Shown here one piece after another: positions 2,129 to 45,141 of a stretch of DNA of 64,000 bases (position 1 is the stretch's first letter; every line of letters starts with the position of its first letter). Made by a program: the position numbers and the translations under genes. The notes under the pieces were generated by a model. The model did not search any database. It had not been told where the DNA came from and saw only the letters and a list, made by a program, of their open reading frames with translations. The stretch spans positions 434,001 to 498,000 of the forward strand of contig JANFNE010000046.1 of NCBI GenBank assembly GCA_024867545.1, read 5' to 3'. This DNA comes from Phytopythium helicoides (taxonomy: Eukaryota > Oomycota > Peronosporomycetes > Pythiales > Pythiaceae).

Positions 2129-5100
2129 CTACACGATTCGCAGCTTCGACGAGATGCCGAACGCCTCATCCTGTTGTTCCACACGCGGAAAGAGCTCGGC
2201 GCGCATGACCTCGCTGAGAGCATCGAGCGCACCCTGCGCATGGAAAATGACCACGTTGTCTCGATCGGTGCGTGAAACATGCTTCAGCGTCTGATACACA
2301 GATGCCAATTGGTCCGGCAAAATCTCGAGTAGCTTCCACCCGAGAGCTGGATCAAGTACTTGAGCACGAATACAGCGCCTCGGCGAACAGCAATGACGGG
2401 ACTCGGTGCTGGTGGAGGTAGCGAACTCGTTTTCGATTCTGTTTTGGATGCGTTCAAGTCATCCTTGGAGGCAGAAGCATTTGTCAACGTCTTCACTGGC
2501 GTCAATCCAATTGAAGGCTCGCTTGGTGCGTTGTCGAGCTCTAACTGTAAGACTCCGACCACGCACGTGATCACATCGACCGCGAACGGTTGCAAACTCC
2601 ACTGCAGTAGAGCGCAAACTTCCGCCAGATTGGACAGACAGCTTGCACGCAGGGTTGCTTCCTCCATTTGTGAAGCCCCACCAGACGACTCGGCGCTTGC
2701 AAGTGTTTGAGTGGGTGCAGGTGGTGGCTGGGATTGAGCAGATGTATCTGTCTCAGTCTTGCTTGGGATTTCCTGAATCAGGGCAACGCGCTTAGCTGCA
2801 GCCTTCACTTGCTTGGGACTTGCAGTCGGCCGGATACAGTCCAGGTATGCGTACACGAACACCTTGGCATACTTTGGCAACGTCTCACCGCACCGTTTTG
2901 CAGCGAACAACAGTGCTTCGCTCAATTTGATGCGCGTCTCAAGAGTGAACTGCCGTTTTTGGTCCTGTAGAGCAGCAACTAGCAATGGGATCGCCACGTC
3001 TGGGTGGATATCAGCAAGTGTTGACAGGCCTTGAACTGCAGCAAGAAACACGTAGCTCTCTGTATCCTCAATGTGGCGCAAGAAGATCTTGATAAGTAAC
3101 TCGATCCTGGGAGTCCACTCTTGCTCGCCCCTATGAAGCTGGCTGGCTCGTACAAGTTTGGTGAGCGTCACAACCCCTCGAGCCCGCAGTGGCACCAGCG
3201 CACTCTTGAGGTCGTCCTCAGCCCGCTTCAACACCTGAGCAAATGACTCTTGCTTCTGGGACTTGCTCGCAGCATCTTCGGATACTGCGTCGCGACTTAG
3301 AATCCGCACTCGAGCTTCACTTCCCAACTCGGCGATATCAGGCTTTGGGTGATGCGACAACTCTTCCAGAACGGGCAACATGCGCTTCAACTCCGCTTCC
3401 TCACTGGCACTACGATGTGTTGACCCTGCTTCCAGGATTGTCATCACAACTCCCAAACAGATGGTAAGCATCTCCACGCTCTCCTCTTCATCGTCTGCAG
3501 CAAGCGAGTCAGTAGCATCAATCAGCGTTGAGGTATTCTCAACGGAGTCAACTAGCCGAGTGGTTTGTCCACTGAAAGTTGTCAGAACCGTTGCAATGCA
3601 TCGCAATATTGTCTCTGCACTGCGAAGAACAGCTGGACCGAGCGACTCCGTGATAGAAAGGAGCAGCATCAACACCATTTCCACACCGAGCGGCGTTGAA
3701 GGCACCTTTGCAACTTCATAGGCTCGCAGGCTTTCATCCAGCACAGATTTTTCAGACAAAGTCTCTCTCGAATTAGTAGCTCCCGACTTCCTTGTACTCG
3801 TCCGGACGTCCATGTATGTAAGCAGCAGTGATGCAAACAGGTCCCCGACGACTGCAACTGACTCCAGATTTTTTAGAGTCAATAGCTCGACTAGCGGCTC
3901 AATGACAGCTTGCAAGTTGTGTCGAGTTATCGTTTCTTCCTCCTCGTTGGAAGGTGCGATGCGCCGGATCGCTATTCCTCCGTTCCCTCCAGCACAGAAT
4001 TCGTTGCGTAGTGTGGCCGCTTGTGACCCCGATTGCAGATCTTTTCCACTTGTCTTGAATGAGGAGCGATCAGGGAGCTCCACAGGAAGCACAGCAATCT
4101 GGAGGAAGATCGCGGACCAACTGCTCAACTTGATCCATGCTGGGATTTTTGTATCAGTTATGATCGTCAATATTATACTCGATATTATGCAAAAGAAAGA
4201 CTTACCAACGAGAATATCTTGGATAGGCTGCCGGTGGAAGGATTTGCTGTTCGAAGCAAATGCGTACATGTGGATCAGGGGTCGAAAGATTGGCGCAAGA
4301 ATCTGGAGGAGACTTTGCGACGGCGGTGGGCCACAGACCAATAAGTGGGCCAGCGTGACGCATTCCGACAACTCCTCCTCATCCGCAACAATTGCTTGAT
4401 TTCCAGTTGCCTTGTAGTTTTTCGTTTCGTATCGTAGTAGTGGGTCGAATAGCGGCATCAAGAGGTGTAACTCCACAATGTCAGGGACATCGTGATGCAA
4501 GATGGTCGGTAAGCACGACACCCATTTCGCACAGCAGCTTGCTGGCTCGATTTGATGCGGATATAAGTTCTTTGACCTGCCTGCACAACTTCTTGGCGTA
4601 TGTGTTTGGTTCAACTCCACTCGGACATTGGCAAATCTATAGAAGCGACATGATCAGATCACACCCTAACTTTGTGGTCGATAAATTTCAAGCTTACCAG
4701 CGTTGCAACTTGAATTCGCGCCTGGGTATTACCTTCATCGACTCCGCCTAGGAGGATCTCGATAATGGTCATGACACCACCGTCCTCCATCGATAGCTGC
4801 GACATCAGACGACTTCCGCGCTTCATAAACGCCGATGCAGCCGGCGACCGGCCAGTAGACTGGCCCAAGGCAGCTCGCAGACTCCCCATTGTGAGCTTGA
4901 GTGGAAGGGTTTGAATCATTTGGTCCCGCAGTCGCCTGAAATCAGCCTCGGTTTCGACGCGGACGCCAGACTTGACTTCTCCGCCATATATTACCATCGC
5001 GAGGAGCTCAAGCGTGTATTTTGGCAGCAGAATAGGCTGGAACTGCGGGAGATAGAGCACATGCATCATGACTTGCGTGATCCTTAGCAGGTCGTCACCA

Positions 5101-7418: not shown

Positions 7419-10400
7419 ATGCTGGCGCTGGTGCTGGCGCTGGCGCTGGCCGCGCTGGGCCGCGGCGATGCGGCGCGCGTCCCGCTCGACGTCTGGAGCC
7501 TGCGCTCGCTCAACGGATCGCTGCGCGTGGCCGAGGCGGCGCTGCCGGGATCGGCGCACACGCTGCTGCAGGCCGCGGGGCTGCTGGAGGACCCGTACCT
7601 GCGCTTCCACGAGCTCGACTACCGCTGGGTGGCCGAGGAGACCTGGGTCTACGAGCGTAACGTGACGCTCGAGGCGCCAGCCGCGCGCGCCAGGCTCGTG
7701 TTCGAGGGCCTCGACGGACCCGCGCAGGTCGTCGTGAACGGACGCACGATCGCGCACACGGCCAACTCCTTCCACCCGTACGCGTTCGACGTCTCGAGTG
7801 TCTTGGAACAGCCGGGAGAGCCCAACTCCATCAAGGTCGTGTTTTCCCCAGCCACCAAGTACGCCCGCGATGCGGTACGGCATGTGTATTTCCTAGGCGG
7901 CACCGTCGACAGGGTTCAATGCTGACGATGACTTACGACTCCTAGGCCGAGGCGTACCCGTACTTTGTGCCGGAGACCGTCAACTACAACGTCTGGGCTG
8001 AGCCGTCTCACCGGTCATTTATCCGCAAGGCGGGCTCGGACTTTGGCTGGGACTGGGGTCCCGCGTACGCGAGCACGGGCATTGCCGGGCGAGTGTATCT
8101 TGAGACAGCGGCGACTTCTGTCGAGCTCCAAAGCATCGACGCGATGGTGCAGTTACACTCAGACGATGCTGACCATTCTGTCGCTACGGTGACGGTCCGG
8201 GTGCCAGTAAATACCCCAAGCTTCACGCTCCACAACGTTACCTTTTCCGCGTTCCTGAACGACGAGCGCCAAGTATCTCTTGTGAGGTCTATTGACGACT
8301 CCTGGACGGACGGAGATTCTATCGAGCTCTCGTGAGTTAACACACCTGGTGGGTGCAGGGACGAATTTGCTGACATTGATTGTTCGCGCGCAGGTTCTCA
8401 GTGAAAAATCCGAGGTTATGGTGGCCCAATGGTTATGGCAAGCCACACCTCTACGATCTTCGTGTAGACGCACACCACCCAACCGGCACTTCTTCTGTTC
8501 ACCACAAGATTGGTTTCCGTCGCGTGGAGCTTGTGCAGTCAGACACAACAGCTGGTAACACTACGGGCAAGACATTCTACTTCAAGGTCAACGGTGTCCC
8601 GATCTTCGCCAAAGGTGGAAATTGGATTCCATCCGACTCGTTCCCGACTCGCACCAACGCAACCATGACGTCACATTTGCTCCGTAGCGCTCACGCTGCG
8701 AACATGAATATGGCGAGTGCGCTCATGAGAACACTGCAAGCTCAACTGTGCAGCTAATATTTCCTCCATCCTCGTGTGTTGTTGCAGGTTCGGGTATGGG
8801 GTGGTGGTCGATACGAATCGGATCACTTCTATCGTGAGTGTGATAGGCTGGGTCTTCTTGTGTGGCAAGAGCTCATGTTTGCGTGCGGAATGTAAGTCAC
8901 GCTGTTTGAATCCTATCAATCCGACGTCACCCAACAACGACCTCACATCACTTTTGCAATCAATGTACAATTGCAGGTATCCTCGCGACACCAAATTCAT
9001 TAAGAGCATCGAGGAAGAGGTGCGGTTCCAACTCACGAGGTTGCGCAAGTACACGAGCATCGCGATCTGGGGAGGCAACAACGAGAATGAGAACATGATG
9101 GAGCAGTTCGTCAACGCGACATTCTTTCCACCTGGAGAGTCCTTCAACCGAGATATCGCTGTCGCTGACTTTTCCAAGCTTTTTGTCGACGTGATCTACC
9201 CGATTGTGAAGTCGCTCGATCCAGCACGGCCGTTCGTGGACACGTCGCCGTCGAACGGTGTGTATTCGTATGACCCCTACGTCAAGCGTTGGGGAGCTAG
9301 CAACAGCGTTGCGTTCGGGTGCGTTGGATTTGAGGATGCGCTTTCCCACTTATGATTCACGTGACTTCAGCGATTGACATTGGTGCTGTTATTTTTTTCT
9401 TCCAGCGATGTCCACTTCTACAACTACGACGGCGATTGCCAGAACTTCCAGATGTACCCGCCTGCGCGGTTCATCTCAGAGTTTGGGTTCCAGAGCGCCC
9501 CTTCTGGTCCAGCATTGCGACGCGTAAGCTCCCCATCGGATTGGAATCCTTTCAGTCGTTCTGGAAGCTACTCAAGTTCCGAGAGCGCCATGAAAACGGC
9601 ACAAGTCAGATGCTAGCTCAGATGGAGCGTCGTTTCCACGTGCCGTTCCCGTTCCGCGATGAGAATTGGTTGGAGCAGCCCTTCGGATTCAACGACGAGG
9701 AGAAGTTTGGCTTCGATATCGCCGAACGCATCGACTCGTACTTGTATCTGACCCAGATCCAGCAGTCTCTTTGTTACCAAACAGCAATCCGAACGTGGCG
9801 ACGCGGAAAGCATCACGACCTGGGTATGACGATGGGGATTCTGTACTGGCAGCTCAACGACATTTGGGAGGGTACGAGCTGGTCGAGCATGGAGTTTTCC
9901 GGTCGGTGGAAGAGCCTACACCACGTTGTTCGACGAGAGTTTGCACCTTTTGTCGTATCGATTTTTGAGCAGCCAGATGGTAGTGCCGTCGGAATCTTTG
10001 GCGTCAGCGATATCAACGCGGATATTGACGTCCGACTCTACTATGAACTTCGGCGTACAACAACCGGTGCTCTTGTGAAGACAATTTTGACCGAGGAGGT
10101 CCAGCTAACGCCGCTGGTACATGCTAAATTTTTGGCAGCTATCACAACTTATTACTATACTAACCTCGCTGCTGTAACCCACTCCAGGAGAGCAAACCGA
10201 TTCGGCAACTTCATATCCAGGCGCTGCTTGATGAGCAGAAGACTGGTTGCACACGACTCTCTTGCTTTCTGTACATCCGCTGCCTTGTTGAGGGATCACC
10301 GGGATGCGAAGATACGTACTATTTCCTTGGGCCGTACAAGAAACTTCGGCTGAGCTCGGGCACCATCAATGCAGTAGTGACACCTGCGGCCGAGCCTACA

Positions 10401-10782: not shown

Positions 10783-13244
10783 CTAGATAACGTAGACGCC
10801 TGGGAAATTTGACCGGGAATCGAGCCACCTCAGGTGGATTGGCACGGCAGTTGGTTTCACCTTGCAGTAGTGGACAGCAAGCAACGTGTAGCAATAGCTC
10901 ATTTCTTCGGCTTCAAACAAACACACATTCAGTGGCTCCCTAGGGGTTTGCAATACACAGGTAAGACATGACATACCTTGAGTAGCATCGACTCGTACTT
11001 GGCGTTTAAGTAGCGCGTGCGCTTTCCTTCAACCTTGATGGCCCGCCACTGTTGCTTTTGCTGTTGCTCTTGATACTTGCGCCACAGTTTGACTGTTTGG
11101 TAGCGCATAAAATCGCGCCTGCAAAACATGACGACCGTGTTGGCTTCGGGTATCAGCGACGCTTCCGTCTCGATCACCGGCGCACTCGTTGATGTTTCGA
11201 AAGCGTAGGAATTTGCGTCTGATGATGCATCCTGCAGCGTCGACGGTGCTGATGTGTCCTTCGTTTTCGGTCTGGGCATCTCAACGACTTGCTCCGCCGA
11301 CGTGTCCTGTGTGAAGTTAGCATTGTCATCTCTATCAACATCAACGTCGACACCAATGCTTCGTTTTGCCTCGTTCATCTTTATCGTGGCCAGCTTCATC
11401 GCGATTGTGAGCGGTTGCGATCGCCTCGAGTTACGTTGCCTTTTCCTCGCGGTTCGGGGCGGTTGTCCTTGATCAACGACGCTACCTGGGTCGGCAGTTG
11501 CGATCGCATCAGGATCCTCAGAGGCGACTTCTTTGTTCGTGAATGCTGGACGACCAGCAAACGAAAAGTCAAGGCCAGTCTCGTTTCTTTTCGGATGGTG
11601 GTGGTGGTGGTGGCGGTGTGTACCACTTGCTTCGTCCGATGACCAAGTCTTGACACTGTCGTCATCTAACGACGGAGCGTCAATACTTGTTTTGTCTGGT
11701 GTCCCAATGGACTCAATTGTTGATCCAGTGCCTTCCGTCCTCATCGGCTTGCTTTTCTTCTTCACCGGCGAAGTAGATGGAGACGATAACGACGACGAAG
11801 GTACACTTCGCTTTGTTGCCGGAGGATTCGACTTTTCCATTGTAGGGAACTTCAAAATGGGTACACGCAATGGAGTTGTTCCCTTGGTCCTTGCAGTTGT
11901 AATTCTAGCCTCCACAAACGTCGGGCGAAATCCGTTTGAAAGTCGAATGGTAGCAGTTGACACTCTCCGTCCGCTGAGAAGCCCAACTTGTGAGTTCGTG
12001 GTGATTTCATCCTCCAATGTTCTCCTTCGCGGTTGTGGTTCGGTCGTTGGCTTCCTTGAGTATTTCCTCTTTTTCTTGGATAATTTTCCAGGCGAGACAT
12101 CGCTATCGCTGGGCGATCCATTCAGAATATCCGCCATACTTATATGACGGAAGCCCAGCGAGCTCCCGACCACGATTGGAGCTCTCGTCGGTGGCACAGT
12201 GGTGGTACGCAGCCGATCGAACGGCGACGTTGGAGAAGGCGGGGACTCATACTCGGTCAATGTAGTGGAAGACGAGTCGATTTGCTGTCCACAAGCTTGC
12301 TGCGCGATCGAGCTGAGCAGATCCTCCCCGACTGCTGTCCGGCTTGCAACATCGAGAGACGCCTCCATGTGCTCTTTTCTTTCTCTAGAAGTAGCAAGCA
12401 GCTCAACTGGACTAGTGAAGAATGGCAGACCCGTGAGTTGCGTGTTCTGTGGCGGTGGCGCGAACAGGTCGGTCGGTCGTTGATTATACGCAGGAGAGCA
12501 CCACTCCGCTGGGCCAGAGCTGAGCGACATGAACAACCGAGCGGCGGAGAGGGCTTCAGCGTCGTACGCTGGTGGATTGAGCGACTGGTTGTACGCGTGT
12601 AGAGGAGCGGAGAACTGCTGCTGCTGCGGTGCGTGCTGCTGGATGAAGGTTGGAGGGAACGCGACGCTCGCTGCGGCTGTAGCGCCGCCACCCGCCTGAA
12701 AGTTGTGCGGCGCGCCGTTTCGCCTCTGCTCGCTAAACGCCGGCGTGATCATCGCGGCTGCAGGCGACTGGAACACCTCTCTTCTCCACGTCAGGTTCTC
12801 GAACGCGCTCGTCCCAGCGTGCCCGAACGCGAAGCCGTGCCCCGCAGGAGGCTGGCCGTCTTGGCGCTGCCACACGCCGCTACCGGGCCAGTCGCGGCTG
12901 TAGGCCGTGGGCGCGCGCGTGGCGGGGAACGGCACGGCCCCCAGCGCGCCGGTGGGCGGTCGCAGCCCCGCGAGCGGCCGCTCCCCCGCGCCACCGGCGC
13001 TAGCGACCAGCGGCGTGCGCGTCGGCGGCCCGAGCGCCGGCTGCGGCAGCGCGAACGGCGCGAGCGGGAGCAGCCCCTCGCCCGCCGTGCGCCGCCACCG
13101 CGGGTCGTCCGCAGGCGCCGCGACGAGCGCGGGGGCTGGCGGCAGCGCCTGGCGCGCGGGCGTCCACGCGGGCGCCGCCTGCTGCTCCATCCGCGCGCAT
13201 GCCAGAGGTATCAGCTTTGGCGGGCTCGGCGGGGGTATGTGCAT
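10783..13244 (-). CDS. Low-complexity unknown protein with conserved-looking basic C-terminus
   Basis: A long frame starts at ATG 13244 (a second in-frame ATG, at 13190, is also possible). Its first 600 residues are rich in Ala, Pro, Ser and Gln with no fold visible. They include basic clusters such as KKKRKYSRK, which could act as nuclear localisation signals, and a run of histidines near 11600. The last part is different: a charged helical segment (MFCRRDFMRYQTVKLWRKY, then glutamines and basic residues) of the sort under selection. The frame as read stops at 10929, but a GTATGT donor at about 10975 and an open frame ending at 10783 (SNFPGVYVI) suggest one more exon whose border I could not fix. 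A nuclear or RNA-related role is only a guess from composition. Confidence 0.6.
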
Positions 13245-16768: not shown

Positions 16769-19700
16769 ATGAGCTACAGCGGCGGCGGCGGTGGCGGCGG
16801 TGGCTACGGCGACCGGCCGCGCGATCGGTCGCGGGAGCGCGGCTACGGCGACCGCCCGGGCAGCAGCGGCGGCTACGGCCAGGGCGGCTACGACCAGCAG
16901 CGCGGCGGGTACGACCAGCAGCGAGGAGGCTACGACCAGCGCGGCGCGAGCGGCGGCTACGGCGGAGGCTACGACTCACGCTCGGGCTCGGGCGGCTACG
17001 ACGAGTACTCGCGCTCGAGCTCGGGCGGCTACGGCTACGGCGGCGGCGGCGGCGGCTACGGGGAGTCGGCGCGCAGCGACTACGCGTCCAGCTCCAGCAG
17101 CCACTACGACCAACGTGGGGGCTACGACCAGCGCGGAGGATACGACCAGCGCGGAGGATACGATCAGCGCGGGGGCAGCGGGTACGGGGCCAGTAGCGGC
17201 GGGTACTCGGGCGGCTACGACCAGCAGCGAGGTGGCTACGACCAGCAGCGGGGCGGCTACGACCAGCAACGAGGCGGCTACGACGACCGTAGCGGCTACG
17301 GCGGAGGCGGAAGCCGCGACTACGGCAGCTCCTCCTCTGGTGGATATGATAGCCGGGGATACGGAGGAAGCAGCGGCAGTGGCGGGTACGACAGCCGCGG
17401 AGGCGGGGGTGGCTACGACCAGCAGCGGAGTGGCTATGATGACCGCTCACGCGGAGGCTACGGCGGCAGCAGTGGCGGTGGAAGCGGTTACGGAGGTAGC
17501 AGCGGCGGCGCAGGAGGTGGTGGCTACGGCGGAGGAGGCTACGGCGGAGGTAGCAGTGGAGGATACGGTGGCGGCGGAGGAGGATACGACAACCGCGCTC
17601 GTGGAGGATACGGAGGTGACAGTCGCGGTGGCCGAGACGACCGTGGCTACGGTGGTGGTGGTGGTCGTGATGATCGCGGAGGTGGTCGCGATGACCGCAG
17701 CTATGGCGGGGGTGGACACGACCGTGGCGGCTACGGCGGCGGCGGTGGTCGTGACGACCGCGATCGTGACCGCGGTGGGTACGGAGGTGGCCGTGGAGGC
17801 GGTGACCGCTTTGGAGGGGGAGGTCGTGGAGGCCGTGGCGGCTTCGGAGGCGGTGGCCCTCGCGGAGAGCAATCGGAGGGTGTGGGTGCTGTTTCCGGTC
17901 ACGGATACGAGTCCATTGGTGAGCCAATTGCGGACCCTCGTGTGCAAGAAGAGTGGACTGGCCGTGCTGGGCCTCGAGATGTTCGTGACGATGACCCTGG
18001 CCTTCTCCAGAACTTCATGATCTGCCGCCGTCCAGCCATCGGCAAGGATGGACGATCGTGCCCTCTGGAAGTGAACTACTTTGGTGTGTCGGTTGATACG
18101 GCTGGACGCGAAATCTTCAAATACCACGTGGATGTGGAGCGCTCACCCGACACAAAGTATGGTCCTGGCCCTGGGCAGGATCACAAGGAGGAAGAGAAGG
18201 ACGTTACAATGGCTGAAGATGTGAAGCAGTCTGAAGACGTTGAGATGGCGGAGTCTTCGGCTCCAGCGAAGCCACAACGACCGGAGCGCGCACTTCCTCG
18301 TTCGCTTGTTCGTGCTATCATCAACGCTGCTCTCCGTCAGTATGAGAGCGAATTCAACGGGATTCGTGTGGTTCACGACGGCATGGCTGCGCTTTATTCG
18401 CCAGCTCAGCTCCCGTGGTTGACGAAAGAGTTCGTCGATGTGAACCCGGATGCTCCTCATGGTGGTGCCGCGCCTCCTCAGCAGCGGGGAGGCCGAGGAC
18501 CAAGCACTTTCATCGTCAAGATGAAGCTTGCGGAGACAATCTCGATGAGTTTGATCGACTCGTACTTTTCGAACCCGGACACCAATGTGATGCCAGTTCT
18601 TCAGGCTCTTGATGTTGCCGCTCGTCACCTTGGAGCTCAAAGGTTTGCCATTCTTTGCATAGACATTGGGAGTGCAGCATGCGGCTGATGCTGATGGCGG
18701 CTTTGTTTTTGCTCAGATTGATCTCTGTTGGTCGCAACTTTTTCACAATGAAGGACACTCACCCGCTGAAGGGTGGCAAAGAACTATGTTGGGGCTACCA
18801 TCAGGCAATCAAGATTGCCGACCGAAAGCTTGTGATGAATGTCGACCAGGCAGCGACGGTCTTTTATGCTCCCGGTCCGTTGATGAATCTAGTGCTGGCA
18901 GCCCTAAAGGTCTCGTCGGCGCGTGACATTCGCACCCTGTCGGACCGTGACACTCGCGGCTTGCTTCGCGTCATCCGAAAGATCCAAGTGACACCGACTC
19001 ACCGAACTGACCGCAAGAAGGCCATCTACAGTATTAGTCCCAAGCCGGCTGATGCGACCATGGTCAATATCAAGGGAACGGAGATGTCTGTCGCTGCGTA
19101 CTTCCAAGATCGCTACAAATTCACGCTCCAATACCCGAACCTACCGCCAGTGAACTTGAGTGGGAGCAAGAAGCCGGGGCGCGAGAATTGGCTTCCGATG
19201 GAGTTGTGTGAAGTCGCAGCGGGTCAGCGCTGTCCTAATATCAACGAGCTCGATACTGCGGAGATCATCCGACAAACCAGTCAACCGCCGAAGGTCCGTC
19301 GTGGCAAGATCATGGACCAGGTTCGCCAGGCTGGATTCGAGAATGACCCATACCTTAGCGCATTCGGATTGAAGGTTGAGCAGCGACTCGAGCAAATCAA
19401 TGCACGCGTCGTTGGCCCGCCAGACGTGCAATACGACAACGTGTCGGAGCGCCCCGTGAACGGTGCCTGGAACTTGCGGGGCAAGAAGTTTGTCCACGGC
19501 GCAACACTGGCAAACTGGGGCGTGGTGATTTCCGCGAACGTTAATGAACGTGCTGTGAGCAACTTCATTCGCACACTGTGCGACACTGCTCGCACCAGTG
19601 GTCTGGACGTGCGCGACGAGAATCCCTACATGATTCACATGGACCATCACCGCGGCGCGCAAGTGGAAGAGCTCATGAACATGTGCGTGAAGGAGCTGGA

Positions 19701-20733
19701 GCGACGTGATAAGGGTCCGCCGCAGCTGATCATGGTCATCAAGCAGGACAAGGGCACTGCTTCGTACGGAGACATCAAGCGTATGTCCGACACCGTGCTT
19801 GGCGTCCCGAGCCAGTGCATTGTGTCTGCCAACATTCCGAAGGCAAACCCCCAGTATTGTGCAAACGTTTGCATGAAGATTAACATGAAGCTGAACGGCA
19901 AGAACTCGATTCTTCGCGAGCCGTTGCCGCTTGTGAGCTCGGCACCTACGATCATCATTGGCGCGGACGTGGAGCATCCCCGCTCAGGTATCGGCTTTCG
20001 TCCGTCGATTGCCTCTGTTGTCGCATCTATCGATCGCTACTCGTCGCGCTACGTCGCTCGAGTCGAGGCGCAAAAGTCGCGTGGTGACATTCTGCAGCTC
20101 CCAGGCATGCTTCGTGACCTGTTCCTGGCTTACTATCACCACACGAACCGAAAGCCTGAGCATGTTGTCTACTTCCGCGACGGTGTGAGCGAAGGTCAGA
20201 TGTTTGATGTCCTCCAAGCAGAGATGCGGTCGCTCCGCAAGGCGTTCAAGATGATCTCCGAGGACTACTGCCCTCCGGTGACGTTCGTGGTGGTTAACAA
20301 GCGCCACCATATGCGCTCATTTGGACTCAACATGTCCGACACGGACCGCAAGGGCAATGTGAACCCAGGCACGATCATTGACACTGGTATCGTGGATACG
20401 CACAAGTTCGACTTCTTCCTGTACGGTCATGCGGGCATTCAGGGAACGAGTGTCCCCGCCCACTACACCGTTCTCCATGATGAGAACAACATGTCGGCAG
20501 ATGACATCCAGCGTCTGACCTACTACCTCGGATACACGTTCTCGCGCTGCACGCGCTCAGTATCGTTCACGACGCCTGTTTACTACGCCCATCTGGCGGC
20601 TGGTCGTGCACGCTTCTTTTTGAACGAAACTTCAGACGGTGCCTCCACGATCGGGTCGTACAACTCGAACTCGTCGAACTTTGACTTCACAGGGCTCCAC
20701 AAGAGCCTCGAGAACTGCATGTTTTACATTTAG
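16769..20733 (+). CDS. AGO1: Argonaute with long RGG/GYDQQR-repeat N-terminus
   Basis: Two exons (16769-18642, 18717-20733) encode 1,296 residues with no frame break. The first 370 residues are glycine, tyrosine, arginine and glutamine-rich, with many GGYDQQRGG-type repeats and terminal RGG/RGRGG clusters. Next come the Argonaute N domain (LPRSLVRAIINAALRQYES), PAZ, MID and PIWI. The PIWI catalytic residues are visible: Asp in IIGADVEHP, Asp in YFRDGVSEG and His in YYAHLAAGRAR. This fits a slicing-competent DEDH enzyme; the glutamate finger was not placed. It ends in the family-typical MFYI. The role is small-RNA-guided silencing; the RGG region likely binds RNA or recruits Tudor or methyltransferase partners. 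The upstream in-frame GTG at 16721 was rejected in favour of ATG 16769. The length exceeds most Argonautes because of the N-terminal extension. Confidence 0.95.
16860..17470 (+). repeat. GYDQQRGG-coding tandem repeats in Argonaute exon 1
   Basis: Runs of a 21-27-base unit coding GGYDQQR or GGYDQR recur at about 16880-16945, 17100-17180 and 17210-17290, with scattered copies to 17430. Between them lie GGYGG and GGYDSR units. Unit length and order vary, as expected for slippage-prone coding repeats. Confidence 0.8.
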
Positions 20734-21092: not shown

Positions 21093-23792
21093 TTACCATT
21101 CTTTTCTAACTAATTGTGCTTTCAAGTGCTCTGTCGCAACCGGATGCAGCGTCTCCAAGTCTCCATCATCCACCCAAATGATGGGGTTCGCTTCGGCTGG
21201 GATGGCGATACCATCGTTTTCTCCATTTCCGTCTTCACTTTGATCTACTAACCGAGGCAAGCGAACAAGTCGGCGGCCATTCGTACGAACTCCGTAGCAG
21301 GCACGGCGTGTTCTCAAAACTTGAAGTGCATGGAAGACAAATTCCTTTTCACTCACACCACCGATGCAGATGCTTGAGCCCGTGAGCAGAGCTGACGACT
21401 GCATCCGCTTTGTGGCTCGCCGACCTCGCTCCCTCGTTGGTTGCTGCTGCTGTTGCTTCAGCTGCTGAATCTGGTCTAGCTTTGTGGCCAGAAGTTCATT
21501 GAGTGTGTTGCGAAGTTCCTCGAGTGTCCGAAGGGAGAGTGACTCATCGGGAAGGCTAGCGAAAACTCTCATAAGAATCTCGATTGGCGGCGAGGGAGGC
21601 GTCGACTCCGCATTGTGTACGCTCGGCCCCGGTATCTCTGCATCGAGGGATTTTACCACGGTCGTACGGCGTCCACGAATGCCACTGGACGGAGCTTGAG
21701 CCTTTCCTGTGAGCGTTGCAGTCTGCTGCAGTGCGAGCGGAGAGGTAAGCATAAGCTGGCGTCGGAATCCATCACGCAGCTTGGTTGTTAATCGCTGGTC
21801 GTATTCGAGCCACACCACCGAAAACAGCGCCAACAGCACATCAACCGCAACTACAGTGTTCCTAACTGGCGCTGAAAAGCGTTGCTGTGAAAAATCGGAT
21901 GCAAAATTTGCAGACGATCGGCGTTGTTGTGAGTCAATCTGCGACTGCTCTGCTGTAACTAAGTCTGGACCGCTGAGCGACGCAAGACGAGCTGTAGCCT
22001 GAACTAGGGCATCGTGTTCAATATGACCGAGGTGCTGCGTGATCAGTAGAGTCGCGCGGTCGAGGGGGCACCACCACTTCGCGCTTCCAACTTTTTCAAC
22101 ATCGTTCAAACTCGCTATGGACGGGTCGAGCTCGACGATGTCGCCAAGGAGGTCAACTAAGACATTTAAACAGGTTGCGAGTAGATTCCCTGTAGATAGG
22201 ACAGTGGAGGTGGCAGAAGATGCTGCCACATCACTAGCAGAGGAGAGTTCAAATGGCACCAGCTCACACACTCGAGCGAACAATGCAACACGCACGTCGA
22301 CAGAGTCGTGTTGGTGAGGATGCTCCGTCGGTGTGAGTATAGCAAGAAGGCTATCAGCCGTGGTTGGACTGATGGAAGTGTTGACTGCCTTCCGATATTT
22401 CTCATGGTGGAACAGACAGGACTTAATCAGCTCCATGAGGTGATAATCGGCAAGCGATGCAATTCCATACCGCGCGACAAATGCTTGTTTTAGGAATGGA
22501 TGCAGTGCCAATCGTGGTAACTTCTTCCGCACATTTTCGGCGTCCAGGTCTAGCTTCTCAATGTATAATTCAAGAATGAGCTGCGCGACGTCTTGAGCCT
22601 CAAGTACTCGATGAATCTTCGGACGCGAGGACAGCTGCGCACGAAGTGTTGCCGGAATTGCTCGTGTACGGGTAACAACCTCGGCGTGCCCAGATGCGCC
22701 ACTTCCTGTCAATATTCCAGCATCATCGATATCCTCATCACTCTCGTCCTCGCTGTCGTTCTTTTCCCCGTCACTAGCTGCTCCAGTGTCGTGCATGGTG
22801 GCATTTGTGCGCAAGCTATTTCGTCTCCCAATGTTCCAGTCACCTTTGTCGCCCATTGTTTGAGTGCCTGCGTGGCGCATCCGTGTCATGCGCTCCATGA
22901 GCTGGTGTTGTTCCTCGATTGAACCGTACCTCCAGAGTAGGCCGACTGCATTTGAGTTGACAAACCGGTCCATACTATTGAGAATAGTAACATGTTGGGC
23001 TTCGCCATCAACGAGCGCTTGCAGTACATGGTCCAAATCAGCCGCTGCACGCTCAAGTGGATGTGCGGTCTCCATAGCGTCAAGTGCGTCTCCATCAATA
23101 CCATAGAGCTCTTGTTCCTCTGCTGCACCGACTGCCGCAACATCCTCCACAAACTCATTTATGACCCGAGAGCCTCCTGCTGGGAAGGAATGTCTACTTT
23201 CATTTCCTGGTTCCAGCGCCCCGTCAAGAAGATTGCTCAGCACTCGTCGTAGTTGTGTTTTCTCTACCGCCAGCCGGTTCGCTCGCTGTCTAGTTGACTG
23301 CAACTCGGCACGTAGATGCTGTGCCTCGATCCGAAGCTGCTCGCGATCTTTCTCAATCCGTGTGGCTCGTTCAGTCTCTTGCTCAATCCGTTCAGCCTCA
23401 AAGTGCGCTGAATGCTCGCATTGAGCCAACAGTACCTCGTTCTCCGCGAGCGTTGCATGCGCGAGCTGGAGAAGTGCAAACATATTCAGCGACGCAAGAT
23501 CCCAGATTTGAGCCATTAGTCGAGCCAAGCGAGGTGACAGTGGAGAAAGCACAGCGAGCGCCTGCTTGAGCATGACTGAGCATGTTGTATGATACGTTGC
23601 ACAGCGTCCTGGTAGATGAGGGTGGTGATTGTGATGACTGGAACCAATTGCTTTCGTAAATCCAGCAGCTGGAGAATTGCTGGCGAAGGCTGTCACTGGT
23701 TGCAATCGCGGCAATTGTTGTGTACAGTCGTGCACGAAGGCTTCGAGAACGTCCAATTCATGTGCAGCAATGTGAAGAGCATGCGCGTTCAT
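21093..23792 (-). CDS. Large coiled-coil protein, unknown function
   Basis: One uninterrupted exon of about 899 codons starts at ATG 23792; an upstream TTG in frame is not a credible start. Residues of about 120-210 form a coiled coil rich in Glu, Arg and Gln. An acidic linker (about 340-370) follows. A segment then reads LILELYIEKLDLDAENVRKK...LHPFLKQAFVARYG...LMELIKSC...VRVALFARV. This pattern of a short helix-rich module ending in RVALFxR recalls modules I associate with large protist and ciliary proteins, but I cannot name the family. A poly-Gln/Lys stretch lies near 21445. It is convergent with Argonaute and divergent from the next gene. Confidence 0.7.
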   Translation of the reverse strand: MNAHALHIAAHELDVLEAFVHDCTQQLPRLQPVTAFASNSPAAGFTKAIGSSHHNHHPHLPGRCATYHTTCSVMLKQALAVLSPLSPRLARLMAQIWDLASLNMFALLQLAHATLAENEVLLAQCEHSAHFEAERIEQETERATRIEKDREQLRIEAQHLRAELQSTRQRANRLAVEKTQLRRVLSNLLDGALEPGNESRHSFPAGGSRVINEFVEDVAAVGAAEEQELYGIDGDALDAMETAHPLERAAADLDHVLQALVDGEAQHVTILNSMDRFVNSNAVGLLWRYGSIEEQHQLMERMTRMRHAGTQTMGDKGDWNIGRRNSLRTNATMHDTGAASDGEKNDSEDESDEDIDDAGILTGSGASGHAEVVTRTRAIPATLRAQLSSRPKIHRVLEAQDVAQLILELYIEKLDLDAENVRKKLPRLALHPFLKQAFVARYGIASLADYHLMELIKSCLFHHEKYRKAVNTSISPTTADSLLAILTPTEHPHQHDSVDVRVALFARVCELVPFELSSASDVAASSATSTVLSTGNLLATCLNVLVDLLGDIVELDPSIASLNDVEKVGSAKWWCPLDRATLLITQHLGHIEHDALVQATARLASLSGPDLVTAEQSQIDSQQRRSSANFASDFSQQRFSAPVRNTVVAVDVLLALFSVVWLEYDQRLTTKLRDGFRRQLMLTSPLALQQTATLTGKAQAPSSGIRGRRTTVVKSLDAEIPGPSVHNAESTPPSPPIEILMRVFASLPDESLSLRTLEELRNTLNELLATKLDQIQQLKQQQQQPTRERGRRATKRMQSSALLTGSSICIGGVSEKEFVFHALQVLRTRRACYGVRTNGRRLVRLPRLVDQSEDGNGENDGIAIPAEANPIIWVDDGDLETLHPVATEHLKAQLVRKEW

Positions 23793-24109
23793 TACTATTG
23801 GAATCGTCAAAGGAATTGGCGAGATAAAGCAGTGCTCGCAGTGCTCGCTTTCAACACTCCTCTTTCATGAGAGCACTTGCAAGCAATTGTCGCTCCGTGA
23901 ACCACCTTCGCTGAACAAAATGATGAGAAGAAAAAAAAAAGATGAGAATGCTATTTGTAGCCGGTGTTCTCACATTGCTGGATAAGGTCCTGGTGCCGAT
24001 TGAAGCTCGAAAGCTGCGAGTGAAGCTTGCTTGTGGTGGTTCATTGTCGGATCTAAGAGAGCCTTCCAACCACTGAAGGTTCACCAGGAATCCACGACGA
24101 GTTGTGGTC

Positions 24110-35830: not shown

Positions 35831-37608
35831 TCAGTACGGTAGTTGCCTAGCCAAACCAAGCGCTTTCCAGGCTGCTGGTGAGTCGATTCCCATGAATTTG
35901 CAGCACTCTACCTTCCAATTATGAAGAAGCTGCCCAGCTTCGTCATTGTCGTCCAGTTTTACAAACTCTGCTGCCATGAATTTGTCCAAACGACGATGCA
36001 ATCCGTAGGCTCCAAGAGACATCTCGGTGAAGTGCACTAGGGTGTCTTGGTATTCCACTAACTTTGATATCCTTGACCGGGCTTCTGCCATTAGCAATTG
36101 AAGTCGCGCTTTCGCTACGGCGTCGTCCTCCATGCGCTCCTGGACATCACCAATGCGGCTCCCAAGCAGTTTGTAAGAGTGATAAACTGCACCACGCGGT
36201 CCTGAGTCGCCATCAGAGCTTTTCTCCCATTCAATAATGGTTTGAATTGGCACGAGCTGCCATGAGTCATCCTCTTTCTGAAATGTCATAGATGCTGCCG
36301 TGATCTCGAGTTCACTTGCCATGGGTCCATCGCGCATGTTTGCAAGATCCGCAAGTTCATCCACAACGGTGCACATTCGAATGCGCTCGTTCGGATTGAA
36401 ACGTGTCATCTTCTCAACCAGTTGCCACTGCAAATCACTGCAGCTAGTGGGACGTGGTGGCAGCACGCGACGGCGCATATGGTACTTGACTGCTTCGAAA
36501 CTGAGTGCCATCCACGGAACTCGCGGTGCGAGATTGTCTTTGTTTTGGTGCTCCAGATCGACACCTTCGACGACTCGAAGAGCTTCTATGATACACATCG
36601 CAAACGAGTACACATCCGACGCAAGAGTGGGGAACGAGCTTTCTCCCAACAGTAGTTCTGGTGCTACCCAATTCCACGCGCCACTGATATGCCCACCCTC
36701 CCTTTCGTCCTCACGGTTGCAGCTGAACTGAGTCCAAAGTCCGTTACCTTCGCTTTCTTGTCACTTCCAACCACGATGTTGTTGCACTTCATATCACAGT
36801 GGACGATTCCGCGCTCATGCAAGTACAGCAACCCCAGTGATGCTTCATGTAGCTTTTGCCAAATTTCCTCTGGGTGCTGTGCGAGATATCTCTCCAACGA
36901 TCCGTGGGGAGCGTATTCACATACGAAGAACGGGTTGCCAACGTGGCAAGCACCAAACAGACGGACCACATGAGGATGGCTAAGTTTGAACCAGATATCA
37001 ACCTCCCTCTCAAACATCTTCCGTCTTTGAGCCCGTGCCTTTTCCTTGCTGCCACGAAGACCGTCGACATACGACGATATACCCAACTGATTTGTTGACA
37101 ACGATGACTTACTTGGTTGAATTTGCGACCATGATGACAGGCGAGAGTCCACCATTGACCATACAGTTGACGACGCTGAGCTCTCGTTCTCGGGGATAGT
37201 TGTCTCCAGCCGCTTCACGACCACTTCGGAGTCGAGCCACTTAGCACGATACACATTTCCGAAGCCTCCCTTGCCAAGAGTCTCAAACTCATTCACGACA
37301 AGTTCGTTCCACGGTACAAACCACTCAGGTGTCGTCACTGCAGCTTCTTTATCAGTCATTGTGATTTTCGCTGTGATGTCGTCGTAAGCCTTTTGCATTG
37401 TGGACAGCTGGTCGGAACTGTATCTGTCTTTGTGCGTTGACATTTCTGAATGAAGATAAGCCTGAACAACTCGGCGCTCTTCATCGGTCTCGAGATCCTC
37501 GAGTGCCATGAATGCATCCACATCACGGCTATAAGATGCTGAAGCTCTGTCGACAGCAAGACCAAGACGTCTCTTTACCGCGTCGACTCGATCCTTAAAA
37601 GTTTCCAT
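35831..37608 (-). CDS. Tyrosine-kinase-like protein kinase (probable C-terminal part of the ankyrin-pseudokinase gene)
   Basis: A helical N-terminal stretch leads to a kinase domain at about 37290-36470 with all key parts: glycine loop LGKGGFGNVY, lysine in VVVKRLE, catalytic loop IVHCDMKCNN (HCD for HRD, aspartate kept), TDFGLSS and VAPELLL. It therefore looks active and is TKL-like. One base is missing near 36712 in a GGG run, after which the frame resumes at the activation segment (GGHISGAWNWVAPEL). The C-terminal 150 residues are helical without a known domain. The apparent start, ATG 37608, lies one base after the stop of the upstream ankyrin/pseudokinase frame. The same frame is open upstream across that stop (RQIEPTADD), so a single tandem-kinase protein broken by one error is likely. 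Confidence 0.85.
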
Positions 37609-37609
37609 A

Positions 37610-40600
37610 TCATCTGCGGTCGGCTCGATTTGACGAAAGCTGGAGGGTCAAGTCATCACTAGTGCTATTGAGGAGCACTCTTGAGGCGTCAACCACCAAG
37701 CCGTACATTTCTTCTAGTATGCTTGGGTGATAGGCTGTTGTATGGAGTCGACGGTAAATTGCTTCGAGATCCCTCAAAATCTGCTGTTGTTGTTCATTCA
37801 AGCTGGAAGTGCGAATAGCGTCCCGAAACCTTGTCCATGCTTTTGGCACCTCGTCACCTCGATACTCATCGATCGTGATCAACGGCTCCGGTTCGGGCTG
37901 TGCCTCTTCTAGGGCAGCGAGCTGATAAAACTCATGAACACACGAAGTCGTCGACAATCGAAGTGCTGGATCCTGAGTACACATACGCCCTATCAAATCT
38001 TTTAGATCTTCGGAAAGATTCGAGCTGGACCTCTACTGCCTTTATCGAACGCGTTGATCCAGTGTTCCGGTTTCCAGTCCAATTTATGTTGAACGATGTA
38101 AGAATCGCTTGTGTCATTCCATGGTATTTCGCCTGTCACCACTTCCGCGATGCACACACCCAAAGAATACACGTCTGAAGCCTGAGACGGTCGACTACCT
38201 CTCAGTTGCTCAGGCGATTGCCATCGTTTCGCACCGGCTCCTAACGAACTACCTCGGGATGACTTCTCATCAACATCAGTCGATCCACTCAGTCCAAAGT
38301 CCGAAAGCTTGGCTAGTCCGTCGCTTCCGATTAGAATATTGTTCCCACGAAGATTGCCGTGAATGATTCCTCGCTCATGCAAATAAGCAAGACCCAGTGC
38401 TGCATGATGCAGATATTTCCATGGTCTGCGCACAGCTGGCTCAACCTGAGCAAGGTACTCCATGACTGACCCATTACTTGCATACTCGCAAACGAAAAAG
38501 TGGTGGATAATGTTGCATGCGCCGTACAACTTGATGACATTCGGGTGTCGAAGACGATGCCAAACCCCTACTTCTTCGCCAAAGCTGGAGCTCGAAGCAT
38601 CAGGGACATACAATTTCAAAACGACTTCAGTGTCTAGCCACGTGGCAAGGAATTCGCCTCCAATGGTCGCAGAGTCGACATAACGGCTGACTTGAACATC
38701 AAATGGCGAGATCAACCACCCTGACGTCGTGATATCTGTATCGTTGGGTGAATCTGTTGCCTTCTCACTCGTTGCAGCACGAATGGATGCGTACTGAATC
38801 AGTAGCCGCTGAATATCATGGCGTCCATTTTGAGTTGCAACTGAGAGAGCTGACCTACTATCGACGCTGGTTCGATTGACATCCGAACCATGGTCAAGAA
38901 GGTACTGTACGATCTCCAAGTGACCATTCTCAGCGGCTCGCATTAGTGCTGTTACTCCTTCAGAACCAGTTGCATCAACAAGTGCCCCACGCGCGATGAA
39001 AAGTTGGACAAAGTCCAGCCGTCCCATAGCAGCTGCCAAAATGAGAGGCGTCGATCCTTTCGCATCAACAGCATCAACAGCTGCACCGTTGTCAATGAGG
39101 TACTTCACGATGACAAAATCGTCTTCTTCTTTTGTGTCGTATCGGCTGCTGGTGCTTGTTGCTAGAATCAATGGTGTCGACCCATCTTGAGCGGTGGAAT
39201 TTACATTTGCACCATTGGAAACGAGACACTGAACGATTTCGATGGCGTTTCGGCGCTTTGATATAGCTTGGAGCAATGCGGTTGACTCTCTTCGTATCGG
39301 CGGCGTTCACATTTGCTCCGTTATCGAGAAGAAACTGAGTACTTTTGATGTACCCTTGACGAGCTACTCGCATCAGTGTTGTAGATCCATTTGCATCAGC
39401 GGCGTTCACTTCTGCACCGTGTTCCACAAGGTATCGTGTAGTGTTAATGTTGTCATATTGTTCTTTTGCAGCCAGCATCAGTGGCGTTGTCCCATCGAAC
39501 CTTCGAGCGTTCACATTCGCGCCATTCTCAACCATAACGCAAACTGCTTCGAAACCTGCGCCAGACATCAATGCGGTCGATCCTTCTGAATCAGCTGCGT
39601 TCACATTTGCACCGCTTTGGACTAGAAGCTTGGTCATTGATCCATAGGTGTCGTAGTAAACGCGTTCCATCAGCACAGTTTTCCCGTCATTTTTGCAAGC
39701 ATTCACATCTGCTCCATGCTTGACGAGATACGTGGCGATTTCTAGATTGGCCGTCAGCATCAAAGCTGTTTCTCCTTCGGAATTCGCCGCATTCACATTG
39801 GCTCCACACTTGACGAGGCATTTGATCACATCGAAACGACCTTGTTGGGTCATCGCCATCAGCAATGTCGTTCCGTAGCCGCTCGCTACATTCACATCTG
39901 CACCTTGCTTGAAAAGGAACTCAACAATGTCAATGCGTGGTATTTGCGCCGCCTTTGCCAACGCCGACCAGCCGTACTTGTTTCTAGCGTGAACATCTGC
40001 GCCTTGTTCAACAAGGTGGCGCACAATTCCAAAGTGACCTTCTCCAGCGGCTAGCATCAAAGCCGTCTGCCCGTCTTCGTTTGCGAGATTTACGTCTGCC
40101 CCACATCTAGTAAGGTACTCGACGATCGCCAAGTGACCGTTGTTTGCTGCACGCATCAGGGCTGTCGACCCGTCGTGCAAACACTTCGTGATACTCGCCC
40201 CGGCTTCAACGAAATACTTGACGACTTCCAAATGACCAGTTGCAGCGGCCCTGATCAACACTGTCGAACCGTCTTTTCTGGTAACATTCATATCTGCGCC
40301 GCAGCTGATGAGATACTCAATGACATCCATGTGACCGCTCGCAGCAGCTTTAGTCAAAGCCGTCTCTCCATCCTTTGTAACGGTATTTACCTGCGCGCCG
40401 TGATCAACGAGATACTGAACAGCATCTAGTTGTCCTAAATTTGCCGCTTTGATAAGAGCCGTCATCCCGTCTTCGTCATGGATGTTTGCATCTGCACCGT
40501 GCTGAACGAAAAGCTGAGCAATATCCAGTCTCTTACTGGAGATGGCTTCAATCAAAATTGGTGACCCATACTTTGGAACGACATTCAAATCTGCTCCAGC

Positions 40601-42857
40601 CCGCACAAGATGCCGGACGATACCAAAGTGATTACTGCTCATACCTTGTAGCAATGCAGTCGATCCGTCGCTACTAACAACGTTAATGTTGGCGCCGTGG
40701 TCCACAAGGTATCGAACAACTGACCAGTGACCTTTTTCAGCCGCACACATCAGTGCTGTTGTGTCATCATTCTTGCCAGTGCTTGGGTCTGCTCCGCTGT
40801 TGACGAGATATTGGATGGTATTCACATTCCCGGCTACAGCAGCATACAGCAAAGCTGTGGCGCCATCAATGTCACGAGCACTAATGCTTGCCCCGGTCTC
40901 TACAAGCAGTCGAACGGTCTCTTCATGACCACTCTTGGCAGCAAACATCAGCACTGTCTTCATATTTACATCGCGTGCGTTCACACCAGCTCCAGCTTTT
41001 ATCAGTAGTTGGACAACTTCGTATTGCCCCTTTTCAGCAGCACTCATCAAGGAGGTTTCCTCATTGCTGTTTTGAGCATTGATGTCCGCACCAGATGCAA
41101 TGAGGGTTTCAACAATGTCGTAGTAACCATATTTAGCAGCAAGCATGAGTGCAGTCCCTTGTTGCCAGTTCCGAGCGTCAACGTCTGCTCCAGCCTCGAT
41201 GAGTTGAAGAACAACTCCGCAGTGTCCACTTTCAGCAGCACGCATCAAAGCTGTCTCGCCGGTATCAGAGTAGCTGGTTCCTCCCATACCAAATGAACGT
41301 TTCAAGTCCGTCACGCTTGTATCAGCTCTGCACTCAATCAAGAATTGAACAATCTTCGAATAGCCTCCTGCAGCAGCGCGCACTAGTGCCGAAGATTCGC
41401 AATCTTTGACCACAGCGTTGACGTCTGCTCCGCAACGAACTAGCTCCTTAACAATCTCGTAGTGACCGCCACTGGCGGCCTGCACCAACGCCTTGCAGCC
41501 ACACTCGTTTGCAGCATCCAGCGTCGCCCCACGTTCAGCAAGGTAACGCATCACGTCCAAGTGTCCGCCACCAGCAGCATGCAGAATTGCAGTCGATCCA
41601 TACCAATCTCGGGCGTTCACATCAGCACCATGGCTCACAAGAAACTCAAGTATGTCTTTGTGGCCCGCCTCAGCTGTGTGAACCAAGAGTTTCGAAATAT
41701 TTTCAACAAATGAGTCTTCGTTCACACAGTGAGTCACCACAGCCTTGACAACATCCAAGCGGCCAGCAGCAGCAGCTTGCTCAACCCCTTGCTTCGCGAA
41801 TCCATCGGTTAGACTTAATTTGGCCCCACGCGCAGCGAGGAAATTCATGACGTCGACATGGCGACTAGTGAGGGCTGCTGTAACTGGCGTACTTGCTCGT
41901 ACTTTTGCGTGGGGACTTGCTCCATGGTCGACCAGATATCGAACAACGTCCAAGTGACCGTTCTCCGCGGCAAACATAACACTTGTGTTGCCATCACAAT
42001 CAGTAGCATCCAGGTCGACGCCGCGGTCCACAAAATACTTGACAACATCCAAGTGTCCAAGCTCGGCAGCCCACATCAGCACGGGCTGGTCACTCGAATT
42101 GACAGCACTCATGTCGGCACCACTGTCCAGTAGCAAATGAACAATTTCCAAGTCGCCGTTTGCAGCCGCCCACATCAAACTCGTCTCTCCGCAGGTGCTT
42201 TCCGCGTTCACATCAGCGTTGCTGTTGATGAGCAACTTGGCAACCTCCCCGTGGCCACATTTCAGAGCCAGCATCAATGCTGTTCGTTTGCTCGTGTCTC
42301 TGGCATTCACATCCGCGCCGCTTTCGACAAGAATCTGGACGCTATCCAAGTGACCACTCTCTGCAGCGCGATGCAGTGCCGTTGATCCTTTCTCGTCTCG
42401 AGCATTCACGTTTGCGCCACAGCCCACAAGGTACTGGAGCGCATCTAGACGGCCCTTGATGCGCAGCTTGCACTAACTCTTTACTCCAGTGCTTGCGCGT
42501 TCCTGTCGCCCCCACTCCGCAACCTTCGAGATAGCGAGCAATGTCCAAATTCCCACCCGTAATCGCGTGCATCCAGGCCGTCGCTCGCTTCCCATCCAGA
42601 ATTCTCACGTCCGCGTTACCCTCCACCAGAGTCTTGACAACCAACATGTTCCCACTTTTCGCCGCGCGCATCAACGCCGTGCGGCCGCTCCAGTCCACCG
42701 CGTTTGCGTTCGCTCCTCGCTCGAGCAGCGACCGGACAGCGTCCACCTCGCCGCCCTCTGCTGCTCGCATCAGCGCCGTCTCCCCATTGTCGTCGAGCTC
42801 GTCGATGTCTTGGGCCCCAGCGCGACCAGCTCGGACCGGAGACTCCACCTCCGCCAT
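37610..42857 (-). CDS. Ankyrin-repeat protein with TKL-type pseudokinase domain
   Basis: ATG 42857 starts a protein of about 1,750 residues. From about residue 20 it consists of roughly 40 ankyrin repeats, each close to 33 residues (pattern DxxGxTALMxAAxxGHxxVVxxLVxxGADVN). A kinase-like domain follows at about 38700-38030. It keeps the ATP-site lysine (VVLKLY) and SDFGLS, but the catalytic loop reads HGNLRGNN, so the catalytic aspartate is Asn. The glycine loop is also degenerate (SATIGGEFLATW). It is probably a pseudokinase. A helical tail runs to 37610. Frame breaks by one base occur near 42446, 39283, 38022 and 37637. The protein very likely continues into the active kinase at 35831-37608. 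Ankyrin-TKL proteins are a known expanded class in oomycetes. Confidence 0.85.
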
Positions 42858-44092: not shown

Positions 44093-45141
44093 ATGAGCGC
44101 CGAGCACGAGCATCTGACGCACGCCATCGTCGGCCTGGGCAACCCGCTGCTGGACATCAGCGCGGACGTGGAGCCCGCGTTCCTGGACAAGTACGGGCTC
44201 AAGCCTGCCGACGCCATCCTGGCGGACGAGACGCACAAGCCCATGTTCGAGGAGCTCACGACGGCCTACAAGCCCGTGTTCGTGGCCGGCGGCGCCACGC
44301 AGAACAGCATCCGCGTGGCCCAGTGGATGCTCAACAAGCACAACGCCAGCGCCACCAGCTTCTTCGGCGCCGTCGGCAAGGACGCGCACGGGAGAGAAGC
44401 TCAAGGAGTGCGCGCAGGCCGACGGCGTCAACGTGCACTACCTCGAGCACGAGACCGTCAAGACCGGCACCTGCGCCTGTCTGCGTCGTCGACACGGAGC
44501 GCTCCATGGTTGCCGACCTGTCGGCCGCCAACGAGTTCCACCACGACCACCTCGAGGACGACCGCAGCAAGGACATCATCAACAAGGGCAAGTTCTTCTA
44601 CTCGGCCGGCTTCCACCTCACCGTCTCGCCGCCCGCTGTCATGAAGCTTGCCGAGCACGCGCACGAGAACAACAAGATCTTCCTGCTCAACTTGTCGGCC
44701 CCCTTCATCGTCGAGTTCTTCAAGGACCCGCTCATGGCCGCCGTTCCCTTCGCCGACTTTGTCTTCGGTAACGAGAACGAGGCCAAGGCCTTCGGCAAGG
44801 TGCACGGCTGGGGCGAGGACCTCCCCGAGATCGCGCTCAAGCTCGCGCGCCTTCCCAAGAACTCGGGCGCGCGCTGCCGCACCGTCGTGTTCACGCAGGG
44901 AGCTGACCCCACGATCGTCGTGTTCCAGGGCGAGCTCTACCAGTTCCCCGTGCCAGCGCTCGCCGCGTCCGAGATTGTCGACACCAACGGTGCCGGCGAC
45001 GCCTTCGTCGGCGGCTTCGTGTCGCGCCTGGCGCTTGGCCGCCCCATTGAGCAGTGCGTCAACGCTGGCCACTGGGCCGCCCAGGTCGTCATCCGCCGCT
45101 CGGGCTGCACCTTCCCCAAGGAGTGCGAGTACACGGACTAA
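44093..45141 (+). CDS. ADK: Adenosine kinase
   Basis: Starts MSAEHEHLTHAIVGLGNPLLDIS and reads as a full-length PfkB-family adenosine kinase of about 349 residues: FVAGGATQNSIRVAQWML, FFGAVGKDAHG, GTCA-VCVVDTERSMVADLSAAN, FVFGNENEAKAFG, and the catalytic/anion-hole motif DTNGAGDAFVGGF. It phosphorylates adenosine to AMP, for purine salvage and methyl-cycle support. The frame is interrupted by two single inserted bases, an A at about 44393 and a T at about 44478. Removing them restores uninterrupted homology, and both flanks are perfectly conserved, so sequence error is more likely than loss of this housekeeping gene. No intron is seen. CCAAT motifs lie upstream. Confidence 0.95.

Follow-up and report, generated by a model that had tools for sequence, protein, structure and literature searches.

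The window analyzed here is a stretch of 64,000 nucleotides from a contig of Phytopythium helicoides, and all positions are counted from its first letter. Several genes were recognized in it. An Argonaute gene at 18655–20730 (plus strand) is open over 692 codons and encodes PAZ, Mid, and Piwi domains; its product is 91% identical to one database protein, 76% identical to proteins from Nothophytophthora and Phytophthora capsici, and 69% identical to one from Globisporangium ultimum. Taken on their own, these values would point to a member of the Peronosporales other than Phytophthora, perhaps one of Phytopythium. At 2284–4620 (minus strand) lies a gene for a protein with ARM_TANGO6 and RTP1_C1 domains. 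Three further long open frames, at 10929–13244 (minus strand, 771 codons), 21093–23810 (minus strand, 905 codons), and 9352–10353 (plus strand, 333 codons), had no Pfam match at an E-value of 0.001.

The locus studied here consists of 6 collinear open pieces on the minus strand, running from 42857 to 35834 and found among the open frames of the window. Their products were aligned to that of a sister gene elsewhere in the same genome, described below. The N-terminal piece (42345–42857) starts with an ATG at 42857, contains the first ankyrin repeats (3 scored), and aligns to sister residues 46–181. It is followed by the main ankyrin array (39095–42472), which contains 27 repeats scoring above 5 bits, aligns to sister residues 181–1229 with 59% identity, and overlaps its neighbors, which lie in other frames. 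The third piece (38005–39306) encodes the final ankyrin repeats, 4 of which were scored, along with the larger part of a first, degenerate kinase domain. The end of the C-lobe of this domain and the first part of a helical linker are encoded at 37613–38032 (sister residues 1688–1819, 77% identical). The linker is completed at 36667–37647, a piece that also encodes a second kinase domain as far as its activation segment (residues 1823–2132, 68% identical). The remainder of this kinase from the activation segment onwards, with the C-lobe and a C-terminal tail, lies at 35834–36760 (residues 2122–2413, 62% identical).

According to the original prediction, ankyrin repeats precede a degenerate kinase, which is followed by a second kinase whose key motifs are intact; both Pfam matches and motif positions bear this out. 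Pfam detected ankyrin repeats in the open frames at 42989–42345, 42472–39095, and 39306–38005, and a PK_Tyr_Ser-Thr domain in the last of these (E-value 5.9e-35). No domain was detected in the piece at 38032–37613, and the match to the second kinase was split over 37647–36667 (E-value 1e-26) and 36760–35834 (E-value 4e-6). In the first kinase, the motifs IGGEFLATW (from 38664), VVLKL (from 38625), HGNLRGNN (38338–38361), SDFGLS (38287–38304), and QSPEQL (from 38220) follow each other on the minus strand. The catalytic Asp of this domain is replaced by Asn, while the β3 Lys, the αC Glu, and the metal-binding Asp of the DFG motif are retained. The second kinase carries LGKGGFGNVY (from 37278), VVVKRL (from 37224), HCDMKCNN (36801–36778), TDFGLS (from 36744), and, in the next frame piece, VAPELL (from 36667), all on the same strand. 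This domain thus has both catalytic Asp residues and the Lys two positions after the HRD Asp, while the first domain lacks the HRD Asp and this Lys. The PK_Tyr_Ser-Thr match and, in the domain predicted to be active, a catalytic loop of the Ser/Thr type identify the protein as a tyrosine kinase-like (TKL) kinase. The number of ankyrin repeats had been put at about 40, which is a fair estimate, as a simple repeat profile scored 34 in the pieces of the window and 41 in the sister. About 360 codons separate the HGN loop from the glycine loop of the second kinase.

The sister gene is the nearest relative of the window copy in its own genome, which is 49 Mb in size, and is located on another contig. 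It has the same domain order, with the loop HGSLRGNN in the first kinase and HCDLKCNN in the second, and is read without interruption in one frame of 2419 codons, or 2414 from the first Met. The two copies are 71% identical in the ankyrin-pseudokinase piece and 70% identical in the kinase piece. The window copy itself does not have an uninterrupted reading frame, and was therefore filed as a broken member of the family. One such break had been predicted, but we counted 5 frame changes in 7 kb, 2 of which lie within kinase domains. At all 5, the pieces continue collinearly relative to the sister without an intron-sized gap. Introns were rejected as the source of the frame changes, as the gaps at the junctions are far too short.

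One of these breaks could be taken for the border between 2 neighboring genes, one for an ankyrin-pseudokinase protein ending at 37610 and one for a kinase starting at 37608. As predicted, a stop codon (37612–37610) and an ATG are separated there by a single base. The sister is open throughout this region, however, and the ATG aligns with an internal Met of its product, so that it need not be a start codon. In addition, at most of the paired loci in this genome the open frames of the two domains are equally long, proteins with both kinase domains are present in the database (see below), and the 4 other frame changes would each need a separate explanation. Given the sister that reads through, the collinearity of the pieces, and the internal Met, we discarded the division into 2 genes, which is extremely improbable. 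A single chain in the order ankyrin repeats, pseudokinase, kinase is almost certainly the architecture encoded here.

The frame changes themselves could have arisen in the organism or in the assembly. An adenosine kinase (PfkB) gene adjoining the locus, at 44093–45138 (plus strand), is likewise split between frames, with positions 4–67 of the PfkB profile in one frame and 95–298 in another. No second adenosine kinase copy was found in a search of the whole genome. Since the only copy found is frame-split as well, base (indel) errors in the assembly are the simplest cause of the breaks, and those in the window copy look like such errors. Alternatively, the window copy could be a pseudogene: a formerly functional member of the family that frameshifts have disabled and from which no complete protein is made. 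Five frame changes in 7 kb, with the sister intact, would fit this, as would the presence of both domains in frames of different length at 22 of 88 paired loci (window copy included), a pattern expected in a family with many births and deaths. The split adenosine kinase gene speaks against it, and so does a dN/dS of 0.11–0.45 relative to the sister over all pieces, although this ratio is a gauge of past constraint. We consider a pseudogene unlikely, while acknowledging that a copy with 5 frame changes might fail to produce the protein.

The architecture had been called distinctive. It is real, but it is shared by a large oomycete family rather than confined to a single gene. The genome was searched with the pseudokinase, and 97 of 136 matches were used, any further match of a locus being dropped; for the second kinase, 96 of 144 matches were used. 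Loci were paired when a second-kinase match followed on the same strand, no more than 2 kb downstream. At least 88 of the 97 pseudokinase loci could be paired in this way, including the window copy; as the genome searches score only the best candidates, these counts are lower bounds. The 2 matches lay in open frames of equal length, ranging from 930 to 4032 codons, at 66 of the 88 paired loci. Equal length was taken to mean the same frame, and both domains were directly seen in one frame in 33 distinct fetched loci. The loci are clustered on a few contigs, with 11 on C5, 11 on C20, and 9 on C30.

The same tandem was also found in single predicted proteins of other oomycetes, among the best 120 of 206 matches of one protein database search. 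Of 150 database proteins that were fetched, 54 passed a strict completeness filter as tandems. These include proteins of Phytophthora and Nothophytophthora and are about 37% to 48% identical to the sister; ankyrin repeats were detected with the simple profile in 53 of the 54. Reading the locus as one protein, as originally proposed, is thus upheld by the sister, the paired loci, and these database proteins alike. Further proteins (P0034–P0039 and P0042–P0046) contained at least 2 kinase-like domains, with or without ankyrin repeats, and in some of them the first domain was degenerate. No description of an architecture of ankyrin repeats, pseudokinase, and kinase was found among the top matches of our literature searches, which covered few subscription papers, nor was a function for the family described among the top matches of searches of the oomycete literature. 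The architecture defines a large, expanded, and little-described family of oomycete proteins.

Separate elements of this architecture have been reported in oomycetes. In Phytophthora infestans, PITG_06288 has 15 ankyrin repeats ahead of a TKL kinase, and the kinome includes 3 eukaryotic protein kinases (ePKs) with 2 kinase domains, 19 TKLs predicted to be inactive, and 3 tabulated ePK proteins with ankyrin repeats (PMC3019232). In the passages of that paper that were consulted, ankyrin repeats, pseudokinase, and kinase are not described in combination (PMC3019232). For Saprolegnia, a large set of TKLs is reported, as are ankyrin proteins that are induced in germinating cysts (PMC3681718).

To describe the 2 kinase domains across the family, 95 tandems were aligned, comprising the 54 database proteins and 41 loci of the genome itself (the best-scoring of the 88, window copy included). 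In the first domain, 3 tandems have both catalytic Asp residues and 20 have neither; 50 have the HRD Asp alone and 22 the DFG Asp alone, so that 92 of the 95 lack at least one. The second domain has both in all but one tandem (94/95), the exception being a broken-frame locus without the HRD Asp. The Lys two positions after the HRD Asp is present in every second domain and in no first domain, where it is replaced by Arg in 89. The glycine loop was degenerate in the first-domain rows displayed, and the 5 rows nearest to the window copy in the tree have Asn or Ser at the site of the catalytic Asp. On a quick tree calculated with these columns left out, at least 11 changes were counted at the HRD site and at least 9 at the DFG site. 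With both residues almost never present together, this suggests that the lesion moves about within the domain. A test for dependence between the 2 losses, restricted to independent pairs, had no power. Two relatives in the same genome, on C23 near 284217 and on C68 near 1460907 (L026/L035 and L033), have both Asp residues in the first kinase; these may be relicts or may have regained the residues, and offer a useful contrast.

After one inactivating change, the other positions of the domain may simply drift. Drift of the domain as a whole is countered by the presence of the β3 Lys and of the αC Glu in 90 of the 95 first domains each, and by a dN/dS (NG86) of 0.11 between the pseudokinases of the window copy and the sister. 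For the same pair, the ratio was 0.15 over the linker and kinase and 0.25 over the main ankyrin array. Among close paralogue pairs, values for the first domain ranged from 0.12 to 0.68 (17 pairs, 13 of which were at or below 0.40), and those for the second domain from 0 to 0.41 (15 pairs). As judged from these substitution patterns, the first domain is under purifying selection.

Alternatively, the first domain could still be alive, as an enzyme that is weak, needs no metal, or carries out a reaction other than phosphotransfer. One or both catalytic Asp residues are present in 75 of the 95 first domains, and the β3 Lys and αC Glu in 90 each. Active Src-type tyrosine kinases also have Arg at the Lys position of the catalytic loop, so the change from Lys to Arg is in itself no proof of a dead domain, and CASK provides a precedent for a kinase that can retain activity without the DFG Asp. 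In the window copy, however, it is the catalytic Asp itself that has become Asn, and across the family the loss of at least one Asp, the repeated changes in which of the two is lost, and the degenerate glycine loop weigh against activity. We regard a live first domain as improbable, and the residues present indicate that it is very probably a pseudokinase.

A quick tree of 66 kinase domains placed the pseudokinases in one group and the kinases in another. Recent duplication of a single kinase into both domains was disfavored, as pseudokinases and kinases together did not form one clade relative to the others (AU test, p = 1.4e-47, on the quick tree of 66 rows). The nearest neighbors of the pseudokinases were the degenerate first kinases of dual-kinase proteins, including those of Globisporangium (SH-aLRT 92), which suggests that the tandem predates the expansion of the family itself. 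Like the family, these proteins (P0042, P0044, and P0046, with ankyrin repeats, and P0127 and P0142, without listed ankyrin repeats) have 2 kinases of which the first is degenerate; they nevertheless form a separate group, with about 28% to 32% identity to the tandem of the sister.

The linker between the 2 kinases is about 190 residues long. In a predicted structure of the homolog P0070 (962 residues, mean pLDDT 75.7, pTM 0.76), it forms a series of long helices (residues ~392–581). Its evolution was compared across 33 distinct loci (48 fetched entries, of which 15 were duplicates). In the pairs L005/L037, L013/L037, and L005/L013, the early pseudokinase and the kinase are 92% to 100% identical, while identity falls to 54% to 56% over the later pseudokinase and linker, with sharp borders along the sequence; over a longer kinase stretch, one of these comparisons gave 88%. 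L029/L026 resembles these pairs, its diverged stretch being longer. Other pairs in which both flanks are at least 88% identical retain 79% to 94% identity in this region. The later pseudokinase and linker therefore look like a cassette that could have been exchanged between paralogues. For the ankyrin part, dN/dS ranged from 0.19 to 1.17 in 17 close pairs. We make no claim of diversifying selection on the repeats, as the values that exceeded 1 were obtained over 55 and 84 codons and over one stretch that included 81 out-of-phase bases.

JAKs had been cited as having the same domain order, and correctly so. The N-terminal part of JAKs consists of FERM and SH2 domains ahead of the pseudokinase. 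As in the window protein, a pseudokinase precedes an active kinase within a single chain, with an N-terminal binding region ahead of both; the putative binding region of the window protein contained only ankyrin repeats and neither FERM nor SH2 by Pfam. The window family further differs in the Ser/Thr-type HxDxK loop of its second kinase and in the helical linker of about 190 residues. In JH2 of JAKs, HRD is replaced by HGN, the sequence also present in the window copy, and this dead domain binds ATP and regulates signaling (PMC6287396). TYK2 and JAK1 were the top PDB sequence matches of the pseudokinase. No single stretch passed the threshold, however, and the best one mapped towards the C-terminus of those chains, to a region that we take to be JH1; kinship with JAKs on the basis of these matches was rejected as a summing effect over 2 domains. 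When the tandem model of P0070 was compared by Foldseek and VIA-align to look for JAK-like packing of the 2 domains, neither a JAK chain nor a JAK-like arrangement was among the 50 matches listed by each. Those listed were single kinases and one tandem, a kinase-domain duplication of EGFR whose match (rmsd 22.3) is meaningless, and a library of viral structures returned generic kinases only. No tested feature points to common descent with JAKs beyond both being kinases. By analogy, the window protein plausibly works like JAKs.

The comparison with plant tandem-kinase immune proteins held less well, since these are not generally pseudokinase-first: WTK1 was named a kinase-pseudokinase protein (PMC6170490). 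Like the family, plant tandem kinases such as WTK1/Yr15 and RPG1 have their losses concentrated at the 2 Asp residues and the glycine loop (PMC6170490). The 92 plant proteins described there have no further conserved domain and are of polyphyletic origin (PMC6170490), whereas the tandem of the window is preceded by a long ankyrin array and thus falls outside the plant definition.

Taken together, the locus is probably best explained as a frame-broken copy of a single gene, whose product would be one chain of about 2,400 residues with some 40 ankyrin repeats, a dead kinase, the ~190-residue helical linker, and, as the active partner, a TKL kinase whose catalytic loop is of the Ser/Thr type. In the mechanism we propose, the protein would be located inside the cell, where the ankyrin arm would bind a partner or ligand. 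With its β3 Lys, αC Glu, and DFG Asp kept, the pseudokinase could still bind nucleotide, and would relay its state through the helical linker, either holding the second kinase off or switching it on; the second kinase would be the only output. The sister contained no strongly hydrophobic stretch of 19 residues (best mean hydropathy 1.45). That the first domain controls the second kinase is somewhat favored over its not doing so.

A much more speculative reading is that oomycetes hold an intracellular sensor repertoire on the scale of NLRs and on a JAK-like plan, with ankyrin receptors of varying length, a dead-kinase switch with a moving lesion, a conserved kinase output, and a swappable cassette of later pseudokinase and linker, exchanged between paralogues. 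We think this improbable; if true, such a repertoire would be a system for self- or non-self-recognition in oomycetes, which are not known to have one. Beside animal JAKs and plant immune proteins, the family provides a separate instance of pseudokinase-kinase tandems, in oomycetes. Its 88 or more paired loci in one genome serve as natural replicates: the catalytic residues missing from the dead domain vary, while its partner has stayed intact. With these, one can ask what it is about being dead that counts, whether the missing catalytic base, the missing metal binding, or neither of the two. They also put a name to a large signaling family in organisms relevant to crops.
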